A model generated the notes under the pieces. The model searched no databases, was not told the origin of the DNA, and worked only from the letters and a program-made list of their open reading frames with translations. Below are positions 49,094-64,000 of a stretch of 64,000 nt of DNA, piece by piece. The DNA is from Siphonodentalium dalli (taxonomy: Eukaryota; Mollusca; Scaphopoda; Gadilida; Siphonodentaliidae), in assembly GCA_032622095.1 (NCBI GenBank), contig CP136069.1, positions 6,062,976 through 6,126,975 on the forward strand. The letters are read 5' to 3'. Every line of letters starts with the position of its first letter. Position 1 is the stretch's first letter. The position numbers and the translations under genes were made by a program.

Positions 49094-49316
49094 ATGAGGG
49101 GTGTATTCGGGTGTGGCTCCCATGAGGGGTGTATTCGGGTGTGGCTTCCATGAGGGGTGTATTCGGTGTGGCTTCCATGAGGGGTGTATTCGGGTGTGGC
49201 TTCCATGAGGGGTGTATTCGGGTGTGGCTTCCATGAGGGGTGTATTCGGGTGTGGCTTCCATGAGGGGTGTATTCGGGTGTGGCTTCCACGAGGGGTGTA
49301 TTCGGGTGTGGCTTCC
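49094..49316 (+). repeat. 28-bp G-rich minisatellite, 8 copies
   Basis: ATG (once ACG) of the unit falls at 49094, 49122, 49150, 49177, 49205, 49233, 49261 and 49289, so the period is 28 bp with one 27-bp copy that lost a G. Each unit carries GAGGGGTGTATTCGGGTG, absent from the 48-bp satellite, and the 15-mer GTGGCTTCCATGAGG (one copy reads CTCCC), which is the satellite's own core. The array looks like a secondary expansion from within a 48-bp unit. It breaks the long open frame because 28 is not a multiple of 3. Confidence 0.95.
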
Positions 49317-49338
49317 ATGAGGCATTCAATTAATAAAT
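49317..49338 (+). repeat. Terminal remnant of the 48-bp unit
   Basis: After the last 28-bp copy the sequence returns to the satellite for 22 bp, ending in AATAAATT. It then diverges at CGTCGACG, an 8-bp palindrome. The next bases include GTTTCACGT, the reverse complement of ACGTGAAAC from the satellite unit. So the boundary may hold a short inverted scrap of the same repeat. Confidence 0.8.
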
Positions 49339-49454
49339 TCGTCGACGTTTCACGTAATTATGCGTTGTTTGTCACTAGATCAATAAGACTCTTTGACGTA
49401 TTTAATGTCGAAAATTTATGACATACAAGCCTGCAAATAGCGTGTCTGTCATTT

Positions 49455-49547
49455 GCAGAATGAGGTCCCCAGAGGGTGAATTTAGTGATGCTATACCGCA
49501 AAGCGGGCTAGCATCACCAAATTCACCCTCTGTAGACCTCATTCTGC
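49455..49547. repeat. Hairpin 1 of the foldback element (45-bp arms)
   Basis: Arms 49455-49499 and 49503-49547 are reverse complements with about five mismatches around the loop AAA, flanked by CCGC and GCGG. The arm reads GCAGAATGAGGTC, then the AGAGGGTGAATTT block, then GATGCTA. Confidence 0.92.
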
Positions 49548-49747
49548 TTAGGCCTCATCTTCTGGGAAGTATCTATAGTATCAAATTAACATTGTTTTTA
49601 TTTACATTTCCCTTCTAGGAAGTTTCTATATCCCCTAATTTGCAGAAGATAAAATTCATAATTGAGGTGCCCAATGTGTGAATTCAGCAACTTCAACTGG
49701 GGAACTTCAATCTGATCCTAGGTGTGCCATAGCAGTTGAGGGCCTTA

Positions 49748-49841
49748 GCAGAATGAGGTCCACAGAGGGTGAATTTAGTGATGCTAGCCCGCTGTGCGGG
49801 ATAGCGTCACTAAATTCACCCTCTGGGGGACCTCTTTCTGC
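49748..49841. repeat. Hairpin 2 of the foldback element (45/46-bp arms)
   Basis: Arms 49748-49792 and 49796-49841 pair around the loop TGT, flanked by CCCGC and GCGGG. Both arms are homologous to hairpin 1, so four copies of one arm sequence occur in alternating orientation within 390 bp. Confidence 0.92.
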
Positions 49842-49965
49842 AAATGACAGGCAAGATATTTGCAGGCTTGATGACATATATTTTCAATCTATATAAATTT
49901 TAGTCACATGCATCAATTCTTCTTCATTCCTCGTCACCGATTCCGAATCACGCGTTCGCGCAACA

Positions 49966-50366
49966 TTAACCCTTTCAGTGCCAGGGGCCGATTTCATCGG
50001 CCATAATTTACGGTCTGTAAAATCGGCCCTAAAAATTGTTTTTTTTTTTTTTTTAGATAAAACCTTAGGGGCATGTTATAACTCAAAACTATCACCAAGT
50101 ATTCATAGTAATAATTTTGATGCCCATGAAAAACGTAAGATACCCTGGCAGTAAACCTACAAAATATGTCTGCTAAAGAATATCAGAAAAAATTATTAAA
50201 ATTGTAAAAAATTGTAAAAAATAATAACAAATGATGAAAAATTGTTAGGCCAATGCATTCTCTTATATATTCGAGGCGACCTATGGTCGACTCGCATATA
50301 TAAGACAATGCATTGGCACAGGGTATATGGGTTGATACAAATCGGACCTGGCACTGAAAGGGTTAA
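49966..50366. mobile_element. piggyBac-like MITE with TTAA target duplication
   Basis: TTAA at 49966-49969 and 50363-50366 flanks a 393-bp element whose ends are exact inverted copies of CCCTTTCAGTGCCAGG, extending imperfectly through CCGATTT. A CCC-type terminus with a TTAA duplication is the hallmark of piggyBac-family elements (established knowledge). No transposase frame is present, so it would need a transposase from elsewhere. It holds a perfect 7-bp stem GGCCGAT/ATCGGCC near 49986, a T-run near 50039, and the shared 69-bp palindrome at 50249. Confidence 0.85.
50249..50317. repeat. 69-bp palindromic module, copy 1
   Basis: 33-bp arms surround a 3-bp loop. The left arm starts GCCAATGCATTCTCTTATAT and ends GCGACC; the right arm starts GGTCGACTCGCATATATAAG and ends GCATTGGC. 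This copy has a few mismatches (TTCGAG, GACAATG). Asymmetric flanks TTAGGCC and GGCACAGGG are shared with the other copies. Confidence 0.92.
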
Positions 50367-51426
50367 TACATTTTGGGGACACCTGACACTATTCCCTGTT
50401 TTGCAACAACCGTTGCTTATGAACCGTTGCATATTATTACGCGCGCCGCATGTATATTGTCCTAGAGATTCGAGATAGCTAGGTTCGCTGGGCGTTTTAT
50501 TTATAGGTAATGGGAATTTTTGGGAGGATTAAAAGTCGAACTGCGAACCGGAGGCCGAGTCCGGTAAAAGGTGTAGTTGGGAGTTTCAATTTCGTTTATT
50601 GTCCTTTACATTATTATGTCAATGATGTTCATTTTTGGTTTGTGACAAGCTATGTCAATTACAAATAAAAGAAATGAAAAAGATAATTTGTAAGTCTTAT
50701 ATTTCAACTTTTATAGACATTTTCGTTCTGCAGCCCACTGGGGGTTGTGGTCGGAGACGGCCGAGTCGCCCGCCGGTTCGTTAATTAGGTGCTGGTTGTT
50801 ATTGTTATTTTAACGGAATTCTGAGTTGGTCATTCGCGAAACCAATATATTTTATATTCTATAGTTACAATCATGGGTATATAATATATGATCTTGAGGG
50901 CGTTACCATTTCTGACTATGGTTTTCTTGTTATTATATAGAATGTGATTATTGAATGGAATAAGGGTAGGATACCATGGTCTCTATGGTCCGCTGCGTGA
51001 CATCGCATCGACCAATAACCATCGAGTTGTCAAACCCAGCAATGCATATGTCATCCCGACATGTTCTACATATCTTATTACGAAATTGTCACTATTTCCA
51101 TATTTATTTCAAAGAGTGCAATCACACCACACGACTACACAGCTCCATACAGAGTTTGTGCAATAACATTTACAGTATAATGTCCTAAATAATCGACTCC
51201 TTAGCCACAGCAGAATTATGGGTAACTGTTCAAGATTAGTCAAGAGCTTTCAAATGAATGACAACAAGCCATATTTCCGACTAAATCCTGAAAAGTTACC
51301 CGAGGTGTGTACACGGGCCAACCATTAATGTCCTCACCCGATCGGACAGCCTACTGCACCAACACCTGGGCAAATGTTGTAATGGGGGAAGTCGGCATTT
51401 AGCATTCGGATCTGTATTCAGTGATC
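50367..51426. other. Unassigned intergenic DNA
   Basis: About 1.06 kb with no open frame above 80 codons, no recognised RNA gene and no clear repeat. A locally GC-richer patch lies near 50740-50780 (GGAGACGGCCGAGTCGCCC). I see no reason to call a gene. Confidence 0.6.
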
Positions 51427-51607
51427 TTAACCCTTTACCCAACAAAACGGCCAAAAACGTCCAAATAAAGCTGCAACAGCCTAAATTATCTTGGGTCTGT
51501 CTCAATAAAACCATACAAATATGGATATCATTGGAACCGGCTCATTGACCACATTGTGATGGTTACAGTTATGCCCTGTGCCAATGAATTCTCTTATATA
51601 TATCTCA
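51427..51607. mobile_element. Solitary left end of a piggyBac-like MITE, interrupted
   Basis: TTAA at 51427-51430 is followed by CCCTTTACCCAACAAAACGG, one base different from the termini of the next element. At 51573-51600 a decayed arm of the 69-bp palindrome appears (GCCCTGTGCCAATGAATTCT). No matching right end is visible before or after the next element, so this is probably an older relative that was truncated or entered by the 51612 element. Confidence 0.6.
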
Positions 51608-51637
51608 TTAACCCTTTACCCAACAGAACGGCCCTGT

Positions 51638-51706
51638 GCCAATGCATTCTCTTATATATGCGAGTCGACCATAGGTCGCCTCGCATATATAAGAGAATGC
51701 ATTGGC
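51638..51706. repeat. 69-bp palindromic module, copy 2 (inverted orientation)
   Basis: 33-bp arms with one mismatch surround a 3-bp loop, inside the left terminus. The flanks CCCTGTGCC and GGCCTAA show it is in the opposite orientation to copies 1, 3 and 4. Confidence 0.95.
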
Positions 51707-51785
51707 CTAAAACAAATCGTTTTTTAACACTTTTTACCATTTTTTCTTACATTCTTTAACAATTTTATAATATTTAATGTGTTAA

Positions 51786-51854
51786 GCCAATGCATTCTCT
51801 TATATATGCGAGGCGACCTATGGTCGACTCGCATATATAAGAGAATGCATTGGC
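51786..51854. repeat. 69-bp palindromic module, copy 3
   Basis: Perfect inverted counterpart of copy 2, inside the right terminus, with flanks TTAAGCC and GGCACAGGG. Confidence 0.95.
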
Positions 51855-51884
51855 ACAGGGCCGTTCTGTTGGGTAAAGGGTTAA

Positions 51885-52212
51885 TGAGACTTTTCGGCCT
51901 GACAAGTTTGGTATTTGACCGACTTCTGGTTTATTATGTCTACATACCATAGTATGGTAATCATAGTGCTAACGTCCGGATTGACCACTCGTCGTTAGTC
52001 CGTCCGTCCGTCCGTCGTCTGTCTGCCTGTCTGTCGTAGACACTTTACGCATGGTGCGATAACTCGAACATTTTCTATCTAATCGGAACCAAATTTTGTA
52101 TATGAATTTCTCAGCAAAAAAGACAGATCGAGTTTGAAAAAATATTCACTCTTAAACAAAAATTGTAGGTAAAATTTAATACATTATCATTGTAAACTTA
52201 AATTGGACTCTC
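51885..52212. other. Unassigned AT-rich DNA with a TCCG/TCTG microsatellite
   Basis: No gene is seen. A short tract of GTCC and GTCT/GCCT tetranucleotides runs from 51998 to 52036. A perfect TACCATA/TATGGTA stem lies at 51945-51959. The sequence after the microsatellite (GCGATAACTCGAACA) has the look of dispersed invertebrate repeats, but I cannot name it. Confidence 0.6.
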
Positions 52213-52453
52213 TTAACCCATGTCCAGGTCACCTTTTCACATTTAACCCAAGGCTGTGGTGTTGCAGCATTACAGATCCTGTACCAGTACATTTTCTCGT
52301 GCAAATGCGGGTGACCCATAAATTCCAATAATTTGTGTTATGTACATTTGTCTATATATAATAGTACATAACAGTATACTCTATAATTCAACATCAAAAC
52401 TCTCATTTATGATTCCGATCATAGTAATTTACTATCACCAAGGGATGGGTTAA
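52213..52453. mobile_element. Possible TTAA-flanked MITE
   Basis: TTAA at 52213-52216 and 52450-52453 flanks 233 bp that begin CCCATGTCC and end GGGATGGG. Only the outer five or six bases pair well (CCCAT/ATGGG), so the termini are weaker than in the neighbours. The placement and TTAA ends resemble the adjacent piggyBac-like elements, but chance cannot be excluded. Confidence 0.45.
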
Positions 52454-52454
52454 C

Positions 52455-52566
52455 ATCTGCCGATCATGCTCGGCCTCTCGTTTTTATCAGGATACCCTGA
52501 CCCGGTTGCGATCCCCGGTCCTCCAGCACGATAGACCAGTACGCTCGCTACCTCTCGGCTGCAGGA
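52455..52566 (-). mobile_element. Possible tRNA-derived SINE fragment
   Basis: This GC-rich island stands out from AT-rich flanks. On the minus strand it carries GGATCGCAACC (52504-52514), 8 of 11 matches to the tRNA B-box consensus, and TAGCGAGCGTACTGG (52536-52550) at about the A-box distance upstream. This spacing is typical of tRNA-derived SINE heads. The T-run at 52567-52579 lies on the wrong side to be this element's own tail, so boundaries and identity are tentative. Confidence 0.35.
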
Positions 52567-52590
52567 TTTTTTTTTTTTTAATAAGGCCAA

Positions 52591-53411
52591 TTTAAAGGTG
52601 CTCAATCCGATCAGACGGTCCCCATATTACCAAGTTACAACAACAACAAAGTTATCAGAATCGTTAATTACAATAAAATAATGCTAACCTCTGTCAACAA
52701 TGGAATAAAATTTCACAAAACGTGTTATTTATCAACATGTTGTTCAACGAAATGTGGCCGTATTATCACTTGAGTATCACGAAATTTTGCCGTATTACCA
52801 CTTAATTTTAGAGTTATTCAACCTCATCCGCAATGTTGTCCGAGACCGTCGATTTGAAAATCCTATTCCGGGGCACAATTAATTAAATATTTTAAGAAAT
52901 AACAAATTTCAAAAATCGATATCTGATCACTCTGAGCTTTAAAGGTACTCAATCCGACCAGAGGGTCCCCATATCACCAAGATACAACAACAACAACAAC
53001 AACAACAACATTTCTTTAAAATACCCTTTAGTTATAAGAATCGATTAATTGTAACAAAATAATGCTAAACACTGTCAACTATGGTATCAAATTTCCCCCA
53101 AAACGTGTTAATTATCAGCATTTTGTTCAACGAAATATGGCCGTATTATAACTTATTTTTAGAGCTATCCAACTTCATCCGCAATTTTGACCGAGACCGT
53201 CAATTTTACGACGTATTTCTGGGCCACAAACAATTGAAATAACAAACTTCAAAAATCGATATCTGATCATCACCCTGAACTTTGATGGGTGGGTTCCTCG
53301 ACTCGAATCAAATATTTTTTACACCAGAAGCCAAAGAAATAGTAATTTAGGGGTGTTTAATCGGATTATAATAGTAATTTAGGGGTGCTTAATCGGATTG
53401 AGTACCTTTAA
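52591..53411. mobile_element. Dimeric TTAA-ended MITE
   Basis: The left end TTAAAGGTGCTCAATCCGA is mirrored at 53393-53411 by TCGGATTGAGTACCTTTAA. The interior is a tandem dimer: copy A 52591-52937 and copy B 52938 to about 53283. They share TTCAACGAAAT, CCGAGACCGTC, AAAAATCGATATCTGATCA and other blocks, offset by 347 bp with substitutions and small indels. Copy B begins with its own copy of the terminal sequence. Both ends hold TTAA, so a TTAA target duplication is possible but not separable from the terminus. No transposase frame is present. Confidence 0.7.
52984..53010 (+). repeat. (CAA)n microsatellite
   Basis: About eight CAA triplets lie in copy B of the dimeric element; copy A has only three or four at the equivalent place. 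The expansion therefore followed duplication. Confidence 0.9.
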
Positions 53412-53472
53412 TGGGTGGGTTCCTCGACTCGAATCAAATATTTTATTTTACCCCCGAAGCCAAAGAAATAGT
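53284..53472 (+). repeat. Direct repeat of about 60 bp flanking the element end
   Basis: A block starting TGGGTGGGTTCCTCGACTCG and ending GCCAAAGAAATAGT occurs at about 53286-53343 and 53412-53472. Between them a 32-bp stretch (TAGTAATTTAGGGGTG, then TTAATCGGATT) is also doubled. The second block runs straight into the 35-bp array and supplies the first 12 bases of its unit. Confidence 0.85.
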
Positions 53473-54405
53473 GCGCGTTATTAATAATTATACAACAAAG
53501 AAATAGTGCGCGTTATTAATAATTATACAACAAAGAAATAGTGCGCGTTATTAATAATTATACAACAAAGAAATAGTGCGCGTTATTAATAATTATACAA
53601 CAAAGAAATAGTGCGCGTTATTAATAATTATACAACAAAGAAATAGTGCGCATTATTAATAATTATACAACAAAGAAATAGTGCGCATTATTAATAATTA
53701 TACAACAAAGAAATAGTGCGCGTTATTAATAATTATACAACAAAGAAATAGTGCGCGTTATTAATAATTATACAACAAATAAATAGTGCGCGTTATTAAT
53801 AATTATACAACAAATAAATAGTGCGCGTTATTAATAATTATACAACAAAGAAATAGTGCGCGTTATTAATAATTATACAACAAAGAAATAGTGCGCGTTA
53901 TTAATAATTATACAACAAAGAAATAGTGCGCGTTATTAATAATTATACAACAAAGAAATAGTGCGCATTATTAATAATTATACAACAAAGAAATAGTGCG
54001 CATTATTAATAATTATACAACAAAGAAATAGTGCGCGTTATTAATAATTATACAACAAAGAAATAGTGCGCGTTATTAATAATTATACAACAAAGAAATA
54101 GTGCGCGTTATTAATAATTATACAACAAAGAAATAGTGCGCGTTATTAATAATTATACAACAAAGAAATAGTGCGCGTTATTAATAATTATACAACAAAG
54201 AAATAGTGCGCGTTATTAATAATTATACAACAAATAAATAGTGCGCGTTATTAATAATTATACAACAAATAAATAGTGCGCGTTATTAATAATTATACAA
54301 CAAAGAAATAGTGCGCATTATTAATAATTATACAACAAAGAAATAGTGCGCGTTATTAATAATTATACAACAAATAAATAGTTCGCGTTATTTCGAATTA
54401 TGCAT
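53461..54405 (+). repeat. 35-bp tandem array, 26 copies plus one decayed copy
   Basis: The unit begins CAAAGAAATA and continues GTGCGCGTTATTAATAATTA. CAAAG/CAAAT starts at 53461, 53496 and every 35 bp to 54371, with no indel over 26 periods. Variants come in adjacent pairs: GCGCA in copies 6-7 and 15-16, and CAAAT in copies 10-11 and 23-24, with one more GCGCA in copy 25. This shows multi-unit duplications. The last copy is degraded (GTTCGCG, then TTTCGAATTATG). Each unit carries the palindrome-like core TTATTAATAA. Confidence 0.97.
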
Positions 54406-54461
54406 CTTTAACACTGGAAGTATACGCGGATAACAAAATAAGGGTAAACAAGGAATGTTTA

Positions 54462-54551
54462 TTACCTCCCCTGGTTAAGTGGTCCTGAATAGAGTTACCA
54501 CCCCTGGTTAAGTGGTCCTAAATAGAGTTACCTCCCCCGGTTAAGTGGTCC
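54462..54551 (+). repeat. 33-bp direct repeat, nearly three copies
   Basis: Starts at 54462, 54495 and 54528 carry TTACC, then CCCTGGTTAAGTGGTCCT, then AATAGAG. The third copy is cut off after GGTCC by the poly(T) of the next feature, so the retroposon appears to have inserted into the repeat. Confidence 0.9.
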
Positions 54552-55028
54552 TTTTTTTTTTAGAATAGAATATAATTTATTCCAATCTTCGACCCCTCAC
54601 GGGATATGAGATCGTATATAAAAAAAATTAACAATGGTCATCCCAACATAACAAGTAAACAGTATAAATTATATAGTGAACATATATACATTTATAAAAT
54701 GCATTTGGATAATGTTAAAACCTGAGACAAATGTAACAATTAATAATTTGAAGGTCGAGTTAAATTAAAGTGAAAGATTGAGAAAAGATCCCTCGGTTTC
54801 TCATTATCTATTACTAATTAATAGTCTGTAGATTTTACATACGAGTTAGTAAATGTAGAGTATAATTGTATATATATCCAGCAGTAGATTAACCAATTGA
54901 AATAATTAGACTTAGTTAAGTTTCTGAAAATAATTTCACTACGTACACGTATAAGGGGCCATTCCATCATGACCTGAGGATAAACATGCTAGTCTTGGGA
55001 TGCACATTATATCCAACTGACTTGACAA
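54551..55028 (-). mobile_element. 3' end of a minus-strand retroposon or processed copy
   Basis: On the minus strand the sequence runs GATTGGAATAAATT, then ATATTCTATTCT, and ends in a poly(A) of about 10 (poly(T) at 54552-54561). A polyadenylation hexamer AATAAA lies at 54576-54581, about 15-25 bases before the tail, as in a retrotransposed 3' end. The upstream body, 54600-55028 on this strand, is AT-rich with no coding similarity I recognise, and its 5' limit is not visible. Type (LINE tail, SINE or processed transcript) is undetermined. Confidence 0.55.
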
Positions 55029-55115
55029 TATATACATACACATACATACACATACATACACATACATACACATACATACACATACATATACATATATATT
55101 TATATATTTTTTTAG
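55029..55115 (+). repeat. CATACATACA decamer microsatellite with AT tail
   Basis: About six copies of a 10-bp CATACATACA period run to 55088, then grade into TATA-rich sequence. The 170 bp that follow, to 55285, are AT-rich with nothing recognised. Confidence 0.92.
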
Positions 55116-55285
55116 TTGTATAATGTTTTGGTAGTTATCTCAGTCTTCATTTGGAATCTATATATAATTCTAACCTAGAGACAAAACAATGAGAAACTAA
55201 AAGGACTGATACATAATTTGGAACAAAATTTATAGTGAGAGCAACTCATTGAAATACCAGTCAGCATTGGATAGCATTGTATAGT

Positions 55286-56981
55286 TCTGCTAATCTGATA
55301 TGATGCGGTTGGGTCCTGCTAATCTGATATTATGTGGTTGGGTCCTGCTAATGTGATATGATGTGGTTGGGTCCTGCTAATATGATATGATGTGGTTGGG
55401 TTCTGCTAATCGGCTATGATGTGGTTGGGTCCTGCTAATATGATATGATGTGGTTGGGTCCTGCTAATCTGCTATGATGTGGTTGGGTTATGCTAATCTG
55501 CTATGATGTGGTTGGTCCTGCTAATATGATATGATGTGGTTGGGTTCTGCTAATCGGCTATGATGTGGTTGGGTCCTGCTAATATGATATGATGTGGTTG
55601 GGTCCTGCTAATCTGCTATGATGTGGTTGGGTTATGCTAATCTGCTATGATGTGGTTGGGTCCTGCTAATCTGCTATGATGTGGTTGGTCCTGCTAATAT
55701 GATATGATGTGGTTGGGTCCTGCTAATCTGCTATGATGTGGTTGGGTTATGCTAATCTGCTATGATGTGGTTGGGTCATGCTAATCTGCTATGATGTGGT
55801 TGGTCCTGCTAATATGCTATGATGTGGTTGGGTTATGCTAATCTGCTATGATGTGGTTGGGTCCTGCTAATCTGCTATGATGTGGTTGGTCCTGCTAATA
55901 TGATATGATGTGGTTGGGTCCTGCTAATCTGCTATGATGTGGTTGGGTTATGCTAATCTGCTATGATGTGGTTGGGTCCTGCTAATCTGCTATGACGTGG
56001 TTGGTCCTGCTAATCTGCTATGATGTGGTTGGGTTATGCTAATCTGCTATGATGTGGTTGGGTCCTGCTAATCTGCTATGATGTGGTTGGTCCTGCTAAT
56101 ATGATATGATGTGGTTGGGTCCTGCTAATCTGCTATGATGTGGTTGGGTTATGCTAATCTGCTATGATGTGGTTGGGTCCTGCTAATCTGCTATGATGTG
56201 GTTGGTCCTGCTAATATGCTATGATGTGGTTGGGTTATGCTAATCTGCTATGATGTGGTTGGGTCCTGCTAATCTGCTATGATGTGGTTGGTCCTGCTAA
56301 TATGATATGATGTGGTTGGGTCCTGCTAATCTGCTATGATGTGGTTGGGTTATGCTAATCTGCTATGATGTGGTTGGGTCCTGCTAATCTGCTATGATGT
56401 GGTTGGTCCTGCTAATCTGCTATGATGTGGTTGGGTCCTGCTAATCTGCTATGATGTGGTTGGGTCCTGCTAATCTGCTATGATGTGGTTGGTCCTGCTA
56501 ATATGCTATGATGTGGTTGGATCCTGCTAATATGCTATGATGTGGTTGGGTCCTGCTTATCTGCTATGACGTGGTTGTGTCCTGCTAATCTGCTATGATG
56601 TTGTTGAGTTCTGCTAATCTGATATGATGCGGTTGGGTTCTGCTATGATGTGGTTGGGTCCTGCTAATCGGCTATGATGTGGTTGAGTTCTGCTAATCTG
56701 CTATGATGTGGTTGGGTCCTGCTAATCTGCTATGACGTGGTTGTGTCCTGCTAATCTGCTATGATGTGGTTGAGTTCTGCTAATCTGATATGATGCGGTT
56801 GGGTTCTGCTAATCTGATATGATGCGGTTGGGTTCTGCTAATCTGCTATGATGTGGTTGAGTTCTGCTAATCTGCTATGATGTGGTTGGGTCCTGCTAAT
56901 CTGCTATGATGTGGTTGGGTCCTGCTAATATGATATGATGTGGTTGGTCCTGCTAATCTGATATGATGTGGTTGGGTCCTG
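55286..56981 (+). repeat. 29-bp minisatellite, about 58 copies, with a 7-unit higher-order repeat
   Basis: The unit contains CTGCTAATCTGCTATGATG followed by TGGTTGGGTC; 28-bp versions read GGTTGGTCC. Between about 55887, 56088 and 56290 an ordered set of seven units (five of 29 bp and two of 28 bp, 201 bp) repeats with the same AATATGATATG, GTTATGC and GTCCTGC variants. The edges carry more divergent copies (AATCGGC, GATGCGG, GACGTGG), as expected when homogenisation is strongest in the middle. Confidence 0.95.
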
Positions 56982-57440
56982 GTGAATTGCTATATTGCTG
57001 TTAGGGCAAACTGATGCTGTTAACAAAAAGTACCGTTATATTTTTTAAATTAGTATTTTTCGCTGTGTTCCGATAATCTGAACATATCCAGGAAACGCCA
57101 TTATGCGTATGAAACATTCAAAAACATATTTATTGCGAAAAATATTTAATACTGGTTGTATTAGTTGTTGAAAATCGACTATAATCAAGGTGGTTATTCA
57201 CGTCGTTTCAAAAATACCAGCGCAGCCATTATTATATTTTTTCAAAAATATAAATGCTCTTGTATGTTTCATACACACACTGGTTTTTTTCTCAAAATCG
57301 CTCGGATTAGCCAACACAACGAACATGACAACTTTAGAAAAAATAACGTTACTTTTTCGTAACGGCATCAGTTTGCCCTACCCGCATCATAGCAATTTAG
57401 CAGGATCATCAGCATCATAGCATATTAGCAGGACCATTTA
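56982..57440. mobile_element. Long imperfect inverted repeat (foldback-like) next to the minisatellite
   Basis: AGGGCAAACTGATGCTGTTA at 57003-57022 is mirrored at 57360-57379 with one mismatch. GTATGAAACAT at 57107-57117 is mirrored at 57264-57274. The flanks also pair: AATTGCTAT beside the left arm and its reverse complement beside the right arm. At 57390-57435 the right arm reads, in reverse, about two degenerate minisatellite units (GGTCCTGCTAATATGCTATG). So the left arm carries some 58 units and the right arm about two. The structure resembles foldback transposons whose inverted arms contain tandem repeats. Two open frames across it (57165-57420) look accidental. Confidence 0.75.
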
Positions 57441-57449
57441 CCAGGGGTG

Positions 57450-57551
57450 ATTACAACAAGCGACAACCGCCTGTTATATATTATGTATTATATCTCAAAC
57501 ACTGTTTTTGAAGTTTAATGGGAAATAAACATATTGTATTGTATTGTATTG
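57450..57551 (+). mobile_element. Possible retroposon 3' tail ending in (TATTG)4
   Basis: AATAAA at 57524-57529 is followed within a few bases by four TATTG repeats at 57532-57551. Non-LTR retrotransposons often end in such short simple repeats (established knowledge). The body upstream is not recognised. The 225 bp after it, to 57777, hold nothing I can name. Confidence 0.4.
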
Positions 57552-57785
57552 ATTAGTAGAACATGTCTGCTAATTATTGTTTGACCGATAGCTGTGGAAA
57601 GTTCCCTCCAACCTTCACAACATTTCGATAAGGGGTCCTTCTTTAATATATTATCAAGTTGGTGATCCCTGCTGTTCAGATATGATGCTGGCTGACAACA
57701 CGATGCCATTCAGAAAAAAATACACGTCAATGTTTCGTGGTGTTCGGCCGATTCGAGTGATTTGAGAACAGTTATTTGAAAACAT

Positions 57786-58140
57786 ATATGTGACCCGCCA
57801 TATCAAATCCAATTTTAATAATTTGTTCTTGTATTCTTGAACAATTTTATAATTTCACCCATACAGAGCCCCAGACAAACATGAGCAGACGACACTCTTC
57901 TTGGTGCTTCTATATATGTGTGGGGCTCCCTGCAGGGTAATGGATGTTTTTTTTATTTTATGTCCTAAAAATTGTAAGAAACATTTATTTAAAAAAACAT
58001 GATAAAAAATTGTTAGGCCAATGCATTCTCTTATATATGCGAGGCGACCTATGGTCGACTCGCATATATAAGAGAATACATTGGCACAGGGTAAAAAAAA
58101 TCCCGACTTCCGACTGGATTTGATATGGCGGGTCACATAT
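57786..58140. mobile_element. MITE with intact 8-bp target duplication (hAT-like)
   Basis: ATATGTGACCCGCCATATCA opens the element, and its inverted copy closes it at 58140; the inverted termini extend through AATCCA, about 27 bp. The direct repeat GAAAACAT at 57778-57785 and 58141-58148 is an exact 8-bp target duplication (extendable to 10 if terminal AT is counted outside). Eight-base duplications are characteristic of hAT and some other families (established knowledge); the terminus itself does not identify one. A weak internal inverted repeat (AGCCCCA/TGGGGCT) and one copy of the 69-bp palindrome lie inside. No transposase frame. Confidence 0.85.
58017..58085. repeat. 69-bp palindromic module, copy 4
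   Basis: Same arms and loop as the copies at 50249, 51638 and 51786, with one change (GAATACATTGGC). The flanks AAAAATTGTTAGGCC and GGCACAGGGT match copy 1 closely even though the host element has different termini. Confidence 0.95.
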
Positions 58141-58148
58141 GAAAACAT

Positions 58149-58389
58149 ATAATATTTAAATATATTTTAATAATTTTTCTTAACAACCTCAGCATCATGA
58201 AAAGCATCACACTGACATCACCGTAAGAACCACAAACATAACAAGTGGAAAAATGTCAAAGCATTGAACTGAAATCATATTCAGAATGTTGACAAACCGC
58301 TGTAACAGTTTTGTTTAACAATGCTTTCATACATGCGGAGTTTGGATATTGGATAACTACCAATAATGAATATAAGAACAGATTTGATC
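58149..58389. other. Unassigned AT-rich spacer
   Basis: This 240-bp stretch lies between the MITE and the 26-bp array. No gene or repeat is recognised. Confidence 0.6.
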
Positions 58390-61300
58390 GATTTCTCCAT
58401 GTTCTTCTTAGCGGTGATTTCTCCATGTTCTTCTTTGTGGTGATTTCTCCATGTTCTTCTTTGTGGTGATTTCTCCATGTTCTTCTTTGCGGTGATTTCT
58501 CCATGTTCTTCTTAGCGGTGATTTCTCCATGTTCTTCTTAGCGGTGATTTCTCTATGTTCTTCTTAGCGGTGATTTCTCCATGTTCTTCTTTGCGGTGAT
58601 TTCTCCATGTTCTTCTTTGCGGTGATTTCTCCATGTTCTTCTCTGCGGTGATTTCTCCATGTTCTTCTTAGTGGTGATTTCTCCATGTTCTTCTTAGCGG
58701 TGATTTCCTCATGTTCTTCTTAGCGGTGATTTCTCCATGTTCTTATTAGCGGTGATTTCCCCATGTTCTTCTTAGCGGTGATTTCTCCATGTTCTTCTTA
58801 GCGGTGATTTCTCCATGTTCTTCTTAGCGGTGATTTCTCCATGTTCTTCTTAGCGGTGATTTCCCCATGTTCTTCTTAGCGGTGATTTCTCCATGTTCTT
58901 CTCTGTGGTGATTTCTCCATGTTCTTCTTAGCGGTGATTTCTCCATGTTCTTCTTTGCGGTGATTTCTCCATGTTCTTCTTAGCGGTGATTTCTCCATGT
59001 TCTTCTTAGCGGTGATTTCTCCATGTTCTTCTTTGCGGTGATTTCTCCATGTTCTTCTTAGTGGTGATTTCTCCATGTTCTTCTTAGCGGTGATTTCTCC
59101 ATGTTCTTCTTAGCGGTGATTTCTCCATGTTCTTCTTAGCGGTGATTTCTCCATGTTCTTCTTAGCGATGATTTCTCCATGTTCTTCTTAGCGGTGATTT
59201 CTCCATGTTCTTCTTAGCGGTGATTTCTCCATGTTCTTCTTTGCGGTGATTTCTCCATGTTCTTCTTAGCGGTGATTTCTCCATGTTCTTCTTAGCGGTG
59301 ATTTCTCCATGTTCTTCTTAGCGGTGATTTCTCCATGTTCTTCTTAGCGGTGATTTCTCCATGTTCTTCTTTGCGGTGATTTCTCCATGTTCTTCTTTGT
59401 GGTGATTTCTCCATGTTCTTCTTTGTGGTGATTTCTCCATGTTCTTCTTTGTGGTGATTTCTCCATGTTCTTCTTTGTGGTGATTTCTCCATGTTCTTCT
59501 TTGCGGTGATTTCTCCATGTTCTTCTTTGTGTTGATTTCTCCATGTTCTTCTTAGCGGTGATTTCTCCATGTTCTTCTTAGCGGTGATTTCTCCATGTTC
59601 TTCATAGCGGTGATTTCTCCATGTTCTTCTTAGCGGTGATTTCTCCATGTTCTTCTTTGCGGTGATTTCTCCATGTTCTTCTTAGCGGTGATTTCTCCAT
59701 GTTCTTCTTAGCGGTGATTTCTCCATGTTCTTCTTTGTGGTGATTTCTCCATGTTCTTCTTAGCGGTGATTTCTCCATGTTCTTCTTAGCGGTGATTTCT
59801 CCATGTTCTTCTTAGCGGTGATTTCTCCATGTTCTTCTTAGCGGTGATTTCTCCATGTTCTTCTCTGCGGTGATTTCTCCATGTTCTTCTTAGCGGTGAT
59901 TTCTCCATGTTCTTCTTAGTGGTGATTTCTCCATGTTCTTCTTAGCGGTGATTTCTCCATGTTCTTCTTAGCGGTGATTTCTCCATGTTCTTCTTAGCGG
60001 TGATTTCTCCATGTTCTTCTTAGCGGTGATTTCTCCATGTTCTTCATAGCGGTGATTTCTCCATGTTCTTCATAGCGGTGATTTCTCCATGTTCTTCTTA
60101 GCGGTGATTTCTCCATGTTCTTCTTTGCGGTGATTTCTCCATGTTCTTCTTAGCGGTGATTTCTCCATGTTCTTCTTAGCGGTGATTTCTCCATGTTCTT
60201 CTTAGCGGTGATTTCTCCATGTTCTTCTTTGTGGTGATTTCTCCATGTTCTTCTTAGCGGTGATTTCTCCATGTTCTTCTTTGTGGTGATTTCTCCATGT
60301 TCTTCTTAGCGGTGATTTCTCCATGTTCTTCTTAGCGGTGATTTCTCCATGTTCTTCTTAGCGGTGATTTCTCCATGTTCTTCTTAGCGGTGATTTCTCC
60401 ATGTTCTTCTTTGTGGTGATTTCTCCATGTTCTTCTTAGCGGTGATTTCTCCATTGTCTTCTTAGCGGTGATTTCTCCATGTTCTTCATAGCGGTGATTT
60501 CTCCATGTTCTTCTTAGCGGTGATTTCTCCATGTTCTTCTTTGCGGTGATTTCTCCATGTTCTTCTTAGCGGTGATTTCTCCATGTTCTTCTTAGCGGTG
60601 ATTTCTCCATGTTCTTCTTAGCGGTGATTTCTCCATGTTCTTCTTAGCGGTGATTTCTCCATGTTCTTCATAGCGGTGATTTCTCCATGTTCTTCTTAGC
60701 GGTGATTTCTCCATGTTCTTCTTAGCGGTGATTTCTCCATGATCTTCTTAGCGGTGATTTCTCCATGTTCTTCTTAGCGGTGATTTCTCCATGTTCTTCT
60801 TAGCGGTGATTTCTCCATGTTCTTCAAAGCGGTGATTTCTCCATGTTCTTCTTAGCGGTGATTTCTCCATGTTCTTCTTTGTGGTGATTTCTCCATGTTC
60901 TTCTTTGTGGTGATTTCTCCATGTTCTTCTTTGTGGTGATTTCTCCATGTTCTTCTTTGTGGTGATTTCTCCATGTTCTTCTTAGCGGTGATTTCTCCAT
61001 GTTCTTCTTTGCGGTGATTTCTCCATGTTCTTCTTAGCGGTGATTTCTCCATGTTCTTCTTAGCGGTGATTTCTCCATGTTCTTCATAGCGGTGATTTCT
61101 CCATGTTCTTCTTAGCGGTGATTTCTCCATGTTCTTCTTAGCGGTGATTTCTCCATGTTCTTCTTTGCGGTGATTTCTCCATGTTCTTCTTAGCGGTGAT
61201 TTCTCCATGTTCTTCTTAGCGGTGATTTCTCCATGTTCTTCTTAGCGGTGATTTCTCCATGTTCTTCTTAGCGGTGATTTCTCCATGTTCTTCTTTGTGG

Positions 61301-63988
61301 TGATTTCTCCATGTTCTTCTTAGCGGTGATTTCTCCATGTTCTTCTTAGCGGTGATTTCTCCATGTTCTTCATAGCGGTGATTTCTCCATGTTCTTCTTA
61401 GCGGTGATTTCTCCATGTTCTTCTTTGCGGTGATTTCTCCATGTTCTTCTTAGCGGTGATTTCTCCATGTTCTTCTTAGCGGTGATTTCTCCATGTTCTT
61501 CTTAGCGGTGATTTCTCCATGTTCTTCATAGCGGTGATTTCTCCATGTTCTTCATAGCGGTGATTTCTCCATGTTCTTCTTAGCGGTGATTTCTCCATGT
61601 TCTTCTTTGTGGTGATTTCTCCATGTTCTTCTTAGCGGTGATTTCTCCATGTTCTTCTTAGCGGTGATTTCTCCATGTTCTTCTTAGCGGTGATTTCTCC
61701 ATGTTCTTCATAGCGGTGATTTCTCCATGTTCTTCATAGCGGTGATTTCTCCATGTTCTTCATAGCGGTGATTTCTCCATGTTCTTCATAGCGGTGATTT
61801 CTCCATGTTCTTCATAGCGGTGATTTCTCCATGTTCTTCATAGCGGTGATTTCTCCATGTTCTTCTTAGCGGTGATTTCTCCATGTTCTTCTTAGCGGTG
61901 ATTTCTCCATGTTCTTTATAGCGGTGATTTCTCCATGTTCTTCATAGCGGTGATTTCTTCATGTTCTTCATAGCGGTGATTTCTCCATGTTCTTCATAGC
62001 GGTGATTTCTCCATGTTCTTCATAGCGGTGATTTCTCCATGTTCTTCTTAGCGGTGATTTCTCCATGTTCTTCATAGCGGTGATTTCTCCATGTTCTTCT
62101 TAGCGGTGATTTCTCCATGTTCTTCTTAGCGGTGATTTCTCCATGTTCTTCTTAGCGGTGATTTATCCATGTTCTTCTTTGCGGTGATTTCTCCATGTTC
62201 TTCTTAGCGGTGATTTCTCCATGTTCTTTTTAGCGGTGATTTCTCCATGTTCTTCTTAGCGGTGATTTCTCCATGTTCTTCTTTGCGGTGATTTCTCCAT
62301 GTTCTTCTTAGCGGTGATTTCTCCATGTTCTTCGTAGCGGTGATTTCTCCATGTTCTTCTTAGCGGTGATTTCTCCATGTTCTTCTTAGCGGTGATTTCT
62401 CCATGTTCTTCTTAGCGGTGATTTCTCCATGTTCTTCTTATCGGTGATTTCTCCATGTTCTTCTTAGCGGTGATTTCTCCATGTTCTTCATAGCGGTGAT
62501 TTCTCCATGTTCTTCTTAGCGGTGATTTCTCCATGTTCTTCATAGCGGTGATTTCTCCATGTTCTTCTTAGCGGTGATTTCTCCATGTTCTTCTTAGCGG
62601 TGATTTCTCCATGTTCTTCTTAGCGGTGATTTCTCCATGTTCTTCTTTGCGGTGATTTCTCCATGTTCTTCTTAGCGGTGATTTCTCCATGTTCTTCTTT
62701 GCGGTGATTTCTCCATGTTCTTCTTTGCGGTGATTTCTCCATGTTCTTCATAGCGGTGATTTCTCCATGTTCTTCTTTGCGGTGATTTCTCCATGTTCTT
62801 CTTAGCGGTGATTTCTCCATGTTCTTCTTTGCGGTGATTTCTCCATGTTCTTCTTAGCTGTGATTTCTCCATGTTCTTCTTAGCGGTGATTTCTCTATGT
62901 TCTTCATAGCGGTGATTTCTCCATGTTCTTCTTTGCGGTGATTTCTCCATGTTCTTCTTAGCGGTGATTTCTCCATGTTCTTCTTAGCGGTGATTTCTCT
63001 AAGTTCTTCATAGCGGTGATTTCTCCATGTTCTTCTTTGCGGTGATTTCTCCATGTTCTTCTTAGCGGTGATTTCTCCATGTTCTTCTTAGCGGTGATTT
63101 CTCCATGTTCTTCTTAGCGGTGATTTCTCCATGTTCTTCTTAGCGGTGATTTCTCCATGTTCTTCTTAGTGGTGATTTCTCCATGTTCTTCTTAGCGGTG
63201 ATTTCTCCATGTTCTTCTTAGCGGTGATTTCTCCATGTTCTTCTTAGCGGTGATTTCTCCATGTTCTTCTTAGCGGTGATTTCTCCATGTTCTTCTTAGC
63301 GGTGATTTCTCCATGTTCTTCTCTGCGGTGATTTCTCCATGTTCTTCTTTGCGGTGATTTCTCCATGTTCTTCTTAGCGGTGATTTCTCCATGTTCTTCT
63401 TAGCGGTGATTTCTCCATGTTCTTCTTAGCGGTGATTTCTCCATGTTCTTCTTTGCGGTGATTTCTCCATGTTCTTCTTAGCGGTGATTTCTCCATGTTC
63501 TTCTTAGCGGTGATTTCTCCATGTTCTTCTTAGCGGTGATTTCTCCATGTTCTTCTTAGCGGTGATTTCTCCATGTTCTTCTTAGCGGTGATTTCTCCAT
63601 GTTCTTCTTTGCGGTGATTTCTCCATGTTCTTCTTAGCGGTGATTTCTCCATGTTCTTCTTTGCGGTGATTTCTCCATGTTCTTCTTTGCGGTGATTTCT
63701 CCATGTTCTTCTTAGCGGTGATTTCTCCATGTTCTTCTTTGCGGTGATTTCTCCATGTTCTTCTTTGCGGTGATTTCTCCATGTTCTTCTTTGCGGTGAT
63801 TTCTCCATGTTCTTCTTAGCGGTGATTTCTCCATGTTCTTCTTTGCGGTGATTTCTCCATGTTCTTCTTTGCGGTGATTTCTCCATGTTCTTCTTAGCGG
63901 TGATTTCTCCATGTTCTTCTTAGCGGTGATTTCTCCATGTTCTTCTTTGCGGTGATTTCTCCATGTTCTTCTTTGCGGTGATTTCTTT
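58390..63988. repeat. 26-bp tandem array, about 215 copies
   Basis: The unit starts GTTCTTCTTAGCGGTGATTT and ends CTCCAT. GTTC occurs at 58401 and, exactly 214 periods later, at 63965, so there is no net indel in 5.6 kb. The main variable sites are CTTA/CTTT/CATA/CTCT and GCGG/GTGG. Variants cluster locally, for example CATA at about 61700-62060 and CTTTGTGG at about 59390-59480 and 60870-60960. The array starts abruptly after GATTTGATC and ends at TTTCTTTCACAG, 12 bases before the window edge. On the minus strand all three frames are largely open (78 bp makes 26 codons), starting MEKS. The only stop is the TAA in the CTTA variant, so those frames are not genes. Confidence 0.98.
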
Positions 63989-64000
63989 CACAGAATTTTA

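Follow-up and report, generated by a model that had tools for sequence, protein, structure and literature searches.

How has one 69-bp palindrome come to lie in transposons with different ends? The question is raised by a stretch of 64,000 nucleotides from the scaphopod mollusc Siphonodentalium dalli, hereafter the window (GenBank assembly GCA_032622095.1, contig CP136069.1, positions 6,062,976 to 6,126,975, corresponding to contig C9 of genome G000 in our numbering), which is part of an assembly of 2.23 Gb in nine contigs. The window holds four near-identical copies of the palindrome, here called A to D, and one half-arm, spread over three types of miniature inverted-repeat transposable elements (MITEs). 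An earlier note on this DNA had proposed that the MITEs captured a common module, that the palindrome is itself a mobile unit, or that it carries a function of its own. The comparisons presented below indicate that the hairpin probably spread as a common core with exchanged outer ends, and not as a self-jumping piece.

Structure and abundance of the hairpin core

The four copies in the window differed at 0 to 3 of the 69 positions in pairwise comparisons in a common orientation, which confirms that several MITE types contain one and the same palindrome. The asymmetric flanks described in the earlier note, TTAGGCC and GGCACAGGG, were also recovered, with TTAAGCC in place of the former in the copy at 51786. 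The sequence is a dyad, and all four copies have one imperfection in common, a G at column 28 against an A at column 42. A 20-nt arm pattern searched with up to 3 mismatches gave 9 matches in the window, compared to none in 100 shuffled sequences. The folding z scores of the palindrome strand ranged from -8.0 to -14.0, but since such values are obtained for any palindrome, they provide no evidence of an RNA.

Relatives read elsewhere in the genome, where individual loci are given as L numbers, revealed that the palindrome is one of an inverted pair of hairpins in a core of the form CCCTGTGCC-hairpin-GGCCTAACAAT..AT-rich..ATTGTTAGGCC-hairpin-GGCACAGGG. Only one of the two hairpins was present in the family I copies examined and in the family III copy of the window (the families are defined below). 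The spacer contained units like TTCTTACATTCTTTAACAATTTTTATCATTTTT, and at L071 a 33-bp unit was repeated 6.4 times. Genome-wide, a 33-nt arm pattern with at most 1 mismatch matched 153,823 times on the forward and 153,723 times on the reverse strand (307,546 in total), whereas the reversed control gave no match. Because an intact hairpin matches once per strand, this corresponds to about 150,000 hairpins, or about 0.5% of the genome by length as calculated from the arm count. A share of the matches sits in segmental arrays, such as the one on contig C1 near 0.73 to 0.93 Mb (about 727,800 to 926,300), where arms recur at a regular spacing of several kb across 200 kb. No match to the palindrome element was found in prokaryote or viral contigs with an exact 27-mer, nor in phage records with blastn.

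Outer ends and target flanks

The core was joined to at least 4 types of outer ends, of which types I, II, and IV are flanked by TTAA and piggyBac-like, while type III is mostly flanked by TA. The ends of family I read TTAA-CCCTTTCAGTGCC, those of family II TTAA-CCCTTTACCCAAC, in long and short versions, and those of family IV TTAA-CCCTT(T/C)CATGA..GGAGC. These short inverted sequences, all starting with CC[C/T]T, were found at both ends of the elements, and the three families resemble each other only in the terminal TTAACCCTT. Among elements with both ends visible, TTAA was present on both sides in 29 of 31 for family I, 38 of 42 for family II, and 4 of 6 for family IV. In a fifth, less common group, V, the core is followed outwards by TGTGRTAAA or by no recognisable sequence. 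In a sample of 20 stretches picked from the hairpin listing on contig C1 (0.15 to 4.02 Mb, leaving out the array at 0.73 to 0.93 Mb and without removal of duplicates), the 32 outer sides were assigned to family III (12), family II (12), family I (3), and family IV (2), with 3 unclassified.

Family III ends carry TGTGACCCGCC, and the end pattern TGTGACCCGCCATATCAAATCCAGTCG matched 25,751 times at up to 1 mismatch. The flanking dinucleotides were identical in 18 of 21 copies (15 TA/TA, 2 TT/TT, and 1 AT/AT) and unequal in 3, to be compared with an expectation of 12.6 equal pairs under random pairing of left and right flanks, a high number because TA is so common; the 21 rows include L116 and L119, which resemble one duplicated locus, and two rows from L123 with a common right end. 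The insertion of a family III element into a hairpin arm at L117 is best read, by eye, as a TA duplication, and the family may be Tc1/mariner-like. The third element of the window had been taken to represent a family with 8-bp duplications; this did not hold, since an 8-bp match was found in 1 of the 21 copies only, namely in the window's own.

Conservation and pairing of the hairpin

The consensus hairpins of the elements of families I, II, and III and of those with family IV ends and an AT-rich core were 99% to 100% identical, and the hairpins of the short-core family IV elements (7 and 3 copies) were 87% to 93% identical to these. The outer 24 nt, however, showed only 27% to 52% identity between families, compared to 39% to 52% for shuffled sequences, with the exception of group IVb against the group with family IV ends and an AT-rich core (83%) and of the two ends of family III (100%). 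The values for the inner 60 nt were 48% to 82%, against 48% to 62% after shuffling. This supports the proposal of the earlier note that MITEs with different ends contain a common module, as does the occurrence of both TTAA and mostly TA flanks. In the family III sample, which was drawn by the outer end only, without the hairpin in the query, there were 17 substitutions in 1,931 hairpin positions versus 32 in 1,668 positions of the adjoining 60 nt (28 ends, Fisher p 0.009; the L116 and L127 ends, with a missing arm, were omitted).

To the pairing analysis, the arm scan contributed 212 hairpins, from which one of unclear orientation was dropped, leaving 79 distinct sequences; 71 of these were exactly 69 nt long and were used, and 8 of other lengths were dropped. 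In these 71 rows, 94.0% of the cells pair, and most rows retain the oriented mismatch at columns 28 and 42. Double changes were observed in 28 of 2,272 cells, compared to 5.8 in shuffled data, and 20 of the 28 fall on two adjacent base pairs in the apical stem, where they largely reflect a single split into two types, GACC/GGTC and TCCC/GGGA (G-C to U-A in 9 rows and A-U to C-G in 10). Double changes affected 6 pairs, a figure that 58 of 500 shuffles also attained, and in 18 of 32 pairs the variation is confined to one side. With the double changes clustered in this manner and the 6 pairs matched by shuffles, constant purifying selection on pairing is not supported. The available text of a study of template switching describes how this process can produce such paired changes (PMC8794818; here and below, the papers cited by PMC number were available as excerpts).

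Chimeric elements and a proposed exchange of ends

The inner and outer flanks were paired as expected for one family at 143 of 190 distinct hairpin sides (L001 to L130), and the remaining 47 were mostly unclassified, weakly classified, or family IV ends with an AT-rich core. Clear chimeras were found at three loci, namely the window element E3, L042, and L125, with two kinds of joins and with breakpoints at or beside the hairpin. The two ends of E3 are both of the short family II version, as are those of L042. By comparison, the match to E3 starts at position 24 or 25 in 38 of 40 scored places, and reading 28 of these (L043 to L070) showed the long family II end on one side in each. Since E3 and L042 are located at different sites, the changed element either moved later or arose twice. 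At L125, the order is family II interior, hairpin, a whole family III outer end, and then a family II terminus. At L117, a family III element is situated inside the hairpin arm of another element, and family IV ends occur on two cores, a short core with the apical stem TCCC/GGGA and the AT-rich core with GACC/GGTC. Taken together, the chimeras, L117, and the two cores of family IV show that ends and cores have been newly combined, with the hairpin at the joint.

The three chimeric loci suggest that ends are exchanged at the hairpin, and we consider the chances to be about even that the palindrome belongs to a portable MITE core as its subterminal hairpin and serves mainly as the joint for this exchange. 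The core, with 69-bp hairpins in inverted orientation on either side of an AT-rich, minisatellite-like spacer and with CCCTGTGCC and GGCACAGGG as outer bounds, has been joined to at least 4 sets of outer ends, those of families I, II, III, and IV. Each combination then multiplied, presumably mobilised by a transposase that recognises its ends (a piggyBac-like one in the TTAA families). For the exchange itself, one element may land in or near another, or break at its hairpin, upon which two hairpins could recombine or switch template so that everything outside the hairpin is swapped. A more far-reaching version, which we regard as a speculative extension, is that of a selfish chassis independent of any superfamily, in which the hairpin-spacer-hairpin core multiplies by gaining new ends, riding on piggyBac-like and then on TA-type transposases with the hairpin as crossover joint, and perhaps being amplified through host repair or replication.

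Several observations weigh against the exchange of ends at the hairpin. The 190 distinct hairpin sides yielded only three clear chimeric loci, and as E3 and L042 may be one event, exchange would be rare now or old; no exchange was caught in progress among the loci read. The border of the core is not absolutely fixed, since family II has GGCACAGGGC where families I, III, V, and IV mostly have GGCACAGGGT. With AT-rich flanks, the homology of the interior is weak, and the hairpin comparison for families I and II is biased to intact hairpins because the loci were fetched with queries that contained the hairpin. Finally, there are hints at L093/L094 and L091/L092 that a bare core inserted directly into TTAA, as discussed below.

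The elements of the window are listed in Table 1. The decayed arm reported at 51573 proved to be real, and represents the outer part of the first hairpin in the second CCCTTTACCCAAC element, the left end of which lies at 51427.

Table 1. Palindrome copies and MITEs identified in the window (positions counted from its first nucleotide).
Feature	Position	Strand	Description
Palindrome copy A	50249..50317	+	69 nt, 33-nt arms, 3-nt loop
Palindrome copy B	51638..51706	-	First hairpin of E3, outer side at left
Palindrome copy C	51786..51854	+	Second hairpin of E3
Palindrome copy D	58017..58085	+	Hairpin of family III element D
E1, family I MITE	49970..50362	+	CCCTTTCAGTGCC..GGCACTGAAAGGG; TTAA at 49966-49969 and 50363-50366; single hairpin near right end
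E2, family II MITE remnant	51431..51602	+	Long left end CCCTTTACCCAACAAAACGGCC..; TTAA at 51427-51430
Half-arm of first hairpin of E2	51573..51601	+	Truncated just before E3 starts
E3, family II MITE	51612..51880	+	Right-type end on both sides; TTAA at 51608-51611 and 51881-51884; 112-nt inverted arms
AT-rich core spacer of E3	51707..51785	.	Contains TTCTTACATTCTTTAACAATTTTATAAT unit
D, family III MITE	57789..58137	+	TGTGACCCGCC..GGCGGGTCACA between TA dinucleotides; one hairpin (two in full copies)

Alternative explanations

Alternatively, the core, (A)CCCTGTGCC..GGCACAGGG(T), could itself have been a TTAA-type, piggyBac-like MITE that entered other MITEs and was propagated by them. The core ends do start with CCCT, as do piggyBac-type ends, for which this motif is given as a terminal hallmark in the accessible part of PMC2872659. 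The best candidate for such an insertion is L093/L094, one old locus in two inverted copies (contig C2, 166700900-166701650, and contig C9, 2303200-2303950), where TTAA is located one base beyond both core borders; at L091/L092, TTAA is found at the right border and TTGA or TTGC at the left. In total, 3 of the 24 cores with both borders inside the fetched stretch (group V and TTAACCCTGTGCC loci) had TTAA within 3 nt of both borders, namely L093, L094, and L147, and at L147 it belongs to family IV sequence. The pair of TTAA at L093/L094 raises the weight of this alternative and lowers that of an exchange of ends, and one or two old loci may go back to a bare core that entered a TTAA target. By contrast, no TTAA pair was discerned by eye at the core borders within families I to IV. 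A search with TTAACCCTGTGCC.. at up to 1 mismatch gave 27,161 matches genome-wide, most of which we take to be family III copies that read TTTA there; exact matches numbered at least 100 over contigs C1, C2, and part of C3, which extrapolates to a few hundred in the genome, to be set against the roughly 150,000 hairpins. Eight exact loci were read. The left side of L148, L150, L152, and L153 is family III, with TTAA instead of TTTA; the ends of L147 are those of family IV; L146 ends in the long version of family II, its left flank being unrecognised; and the left flanks of L149 and L151 are unrecognised or family III-like. For the 6 with the right end in the stretch (that of L148 and L153 falls outside), L147 was the only one with TTAA at the right border. 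There was no sign of a large family of bare cores among the group V and TTAACCCTGTGCC loci read. As for single hairpins, none was seen to have hopped in or out of sister copies among 33 family III ends selected by their outer end: 30 had an adjacent hairpin, sometimes shortened, 2 had a crushed one (L117 and L118, which probably derive from a single insertion), and in L125, too near the stretch edge for the script, it was found on reading. No hairpin-free end was thus recovered in family III, and the proposal that the palindrome hops by itself is weakly supported at best, by the old locus L093/L094. We regard a mobile bare core as rather unlikely. It was also noted that the core at L102 (contig C3, 7444800-7445750) lies between direct repeats of 16 exact nt, or about 25 nt with mismatches, longer than a TTAA or TA duplication would be.

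About as unlikely, in our view, is that all copies descend by ordinary divergence from one element, with fast-evolving ends and a constrained hairpin. Such descent agrees with the common start TTAACCCTT of families I, II, and IV, with the presence of family IV ends on both core types, and with the lower substitution rate of the family III hairpin than of its neighbourhood, and it may fit part of the history. What it does not easily explain are the two kinds of target flanks, and the near-shuffled identity of the outer 24 nt, the sharp border, and the chimeras E3, L042, and L125 also argue against it. Somewhat less improbable, though still doubtful, and compatible with an exchange of ends, is that the hairpin is kept for a function in DNA or RNA that aids its carriers, be it binding of a transposase or host protein, stalling of replication, or a small RNA. 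The oriented mismatch and the two paired changes between the apical-stem types are as expected for this, as are the folding scores, with the reservation already made for any palindrome, and the excerpted text of PMC11707139 describes palindromes in piggyBac and piggyBat ends that bind the cysteine-rich domains of the transposase. Yet a single transposase that reads carriers with two kinds of flanks is unlikely, the pairing data include the clustering and one-sided variation described above, and template switching alone may yield paired changes. Sequences of the piggyBac transposase type (PF13843) are present in the genome, with at least 128 matches, many with open frames, among the 116 of 649 candidates that were scored, but no hairpin arm was found in the flanks of 10 sampled copies (5 with both sides and 5 with one side), and no autonomous partner element was identified among these 10. 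Furthermore, no Rfam family was detected at gathering scores within positions 49300-64000. Very improbable, finally, is a Helentron/HINE-type element with a palindrome and a minisatellite array. According to the excerpt of PMC7492417, oyster HINEs combine a 3' palindrome with tandem repeats in their interior, and the AT-rich units of about 33 bp recall these, but the elements studied here have inverted outer ends flanked by TTAA or TA and two inverted hairpins instead of a single 3' palindrome, and the TTAA duplications of families I, II, and IV argue against this assignment.

Other features of the window

The palindromes fall in a MITE-rich stretch beyond a 48-bp satellite that makes up most of positions 1 to about 49,330 (about 49 kb). 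Within the satellite, 16,380 codons form one open frame, but as the repeat period is divisible by three, it need not represent a gene. Further tandem arrays are located at 53461-54400 (35-bp unit), 55280-56990 (about 29 bp), and 58390-63990 (26 bp). Another MITE at 49426-49870, with ends CAAGCCTGCAAATA and the 8-bp duplication ATGACATA, contains an inverted pair of long hairpins of its own (CAGAGGGTGAATTTAGTGATGCTAGCCCGC..), so that the paired-hairpin plan is repeated with a different sequence. The target of E3 is flanked as TCTCA-TTAA and TTAA-TGAGA (51602-51611 and 51881-51889) and adjoins the broken arm of E2; it looks as if it had been situated inside a 14-bp palindrome. The interior of family III, both in the window (57866-57928) and in other copies, has an extra stem, GAGCCCC..GGGGCTC, and a related sequence was seen at L074, which has a different outer end.

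Comparison with known elements

The closest precedent for the hairpin core is the CMITEs of Acropora corals, which are MITE families with different terminal inverted repeats, CCCTTT ends, TTAA duplications, and a common interior (Wang et al. 2010, PMC2872659). As excerpted, that study reports an internal region that is better conserved between families than the ends, which applies here to the hairpins in a comparison that is partly biased. The coral elements differ in that their interior is 75 bp, their length about 100 bp, and their copy number about 1,600, whereas in the present case there are paired 69-bp hairpins, about 150,000 hairpins in all, and one carrier family moreover has other, mostly TA, flanks. 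The terms "palindrom" and "hairpin" do not occur in the portion of the CMITE text available (PMC2872659). Alignment scores do not point to homology between the CMITE interior and the core: shuffled sequences scored as high as the CMITE 60-mer in 159 of 300 cases for E1 and 234 of 300 for family III, with E3 borderline (24 of 300).

Palindromes are also found inside piggyBac and piggyBat ends, but those described in the excerpt of PMC11707139 are about 14 to 19 bp long and bound by transposase, whereas the 69-bp palindrome is present in a mostly TA-flanked family as well. The Helentron/HINE elements and the Pearl elements of bivalves similarly combine a palindrome with internal tandem repeats; the Helentron/HINE arrangement, according to the available text of PMC7492417, includes subterminal inverted repeats and one 3' palindrome, as opposed to an inverted hairpin pair with TTAA duplications. 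No report of a comparable hairpin core was found in open-licence papers, and 12 sequence words from the elements matched no transposon paper in published text; the letters of CCCTTTCAGTGCC also occur in papers on liver regeneration and a rose gene, as far as the text of these was available. Helentrons and HINEs are not known to produce a target duplication.

The ends normally serve to define MITE families and to estimate their age. In S. dalli, the ends look replaceable, and what resembles a lineage is the core, which is found with two kinds of target flanks. If the exchange of ends at hairpins is general, nonautonomous elements could escape the loss of their transposase, and the conserved interior of the CMITEs would gain a testable cause. 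With about 150,000 hairpins of near-identical sequence, the genome also provides a natural experiment on the mutation and recombination of palindromes.

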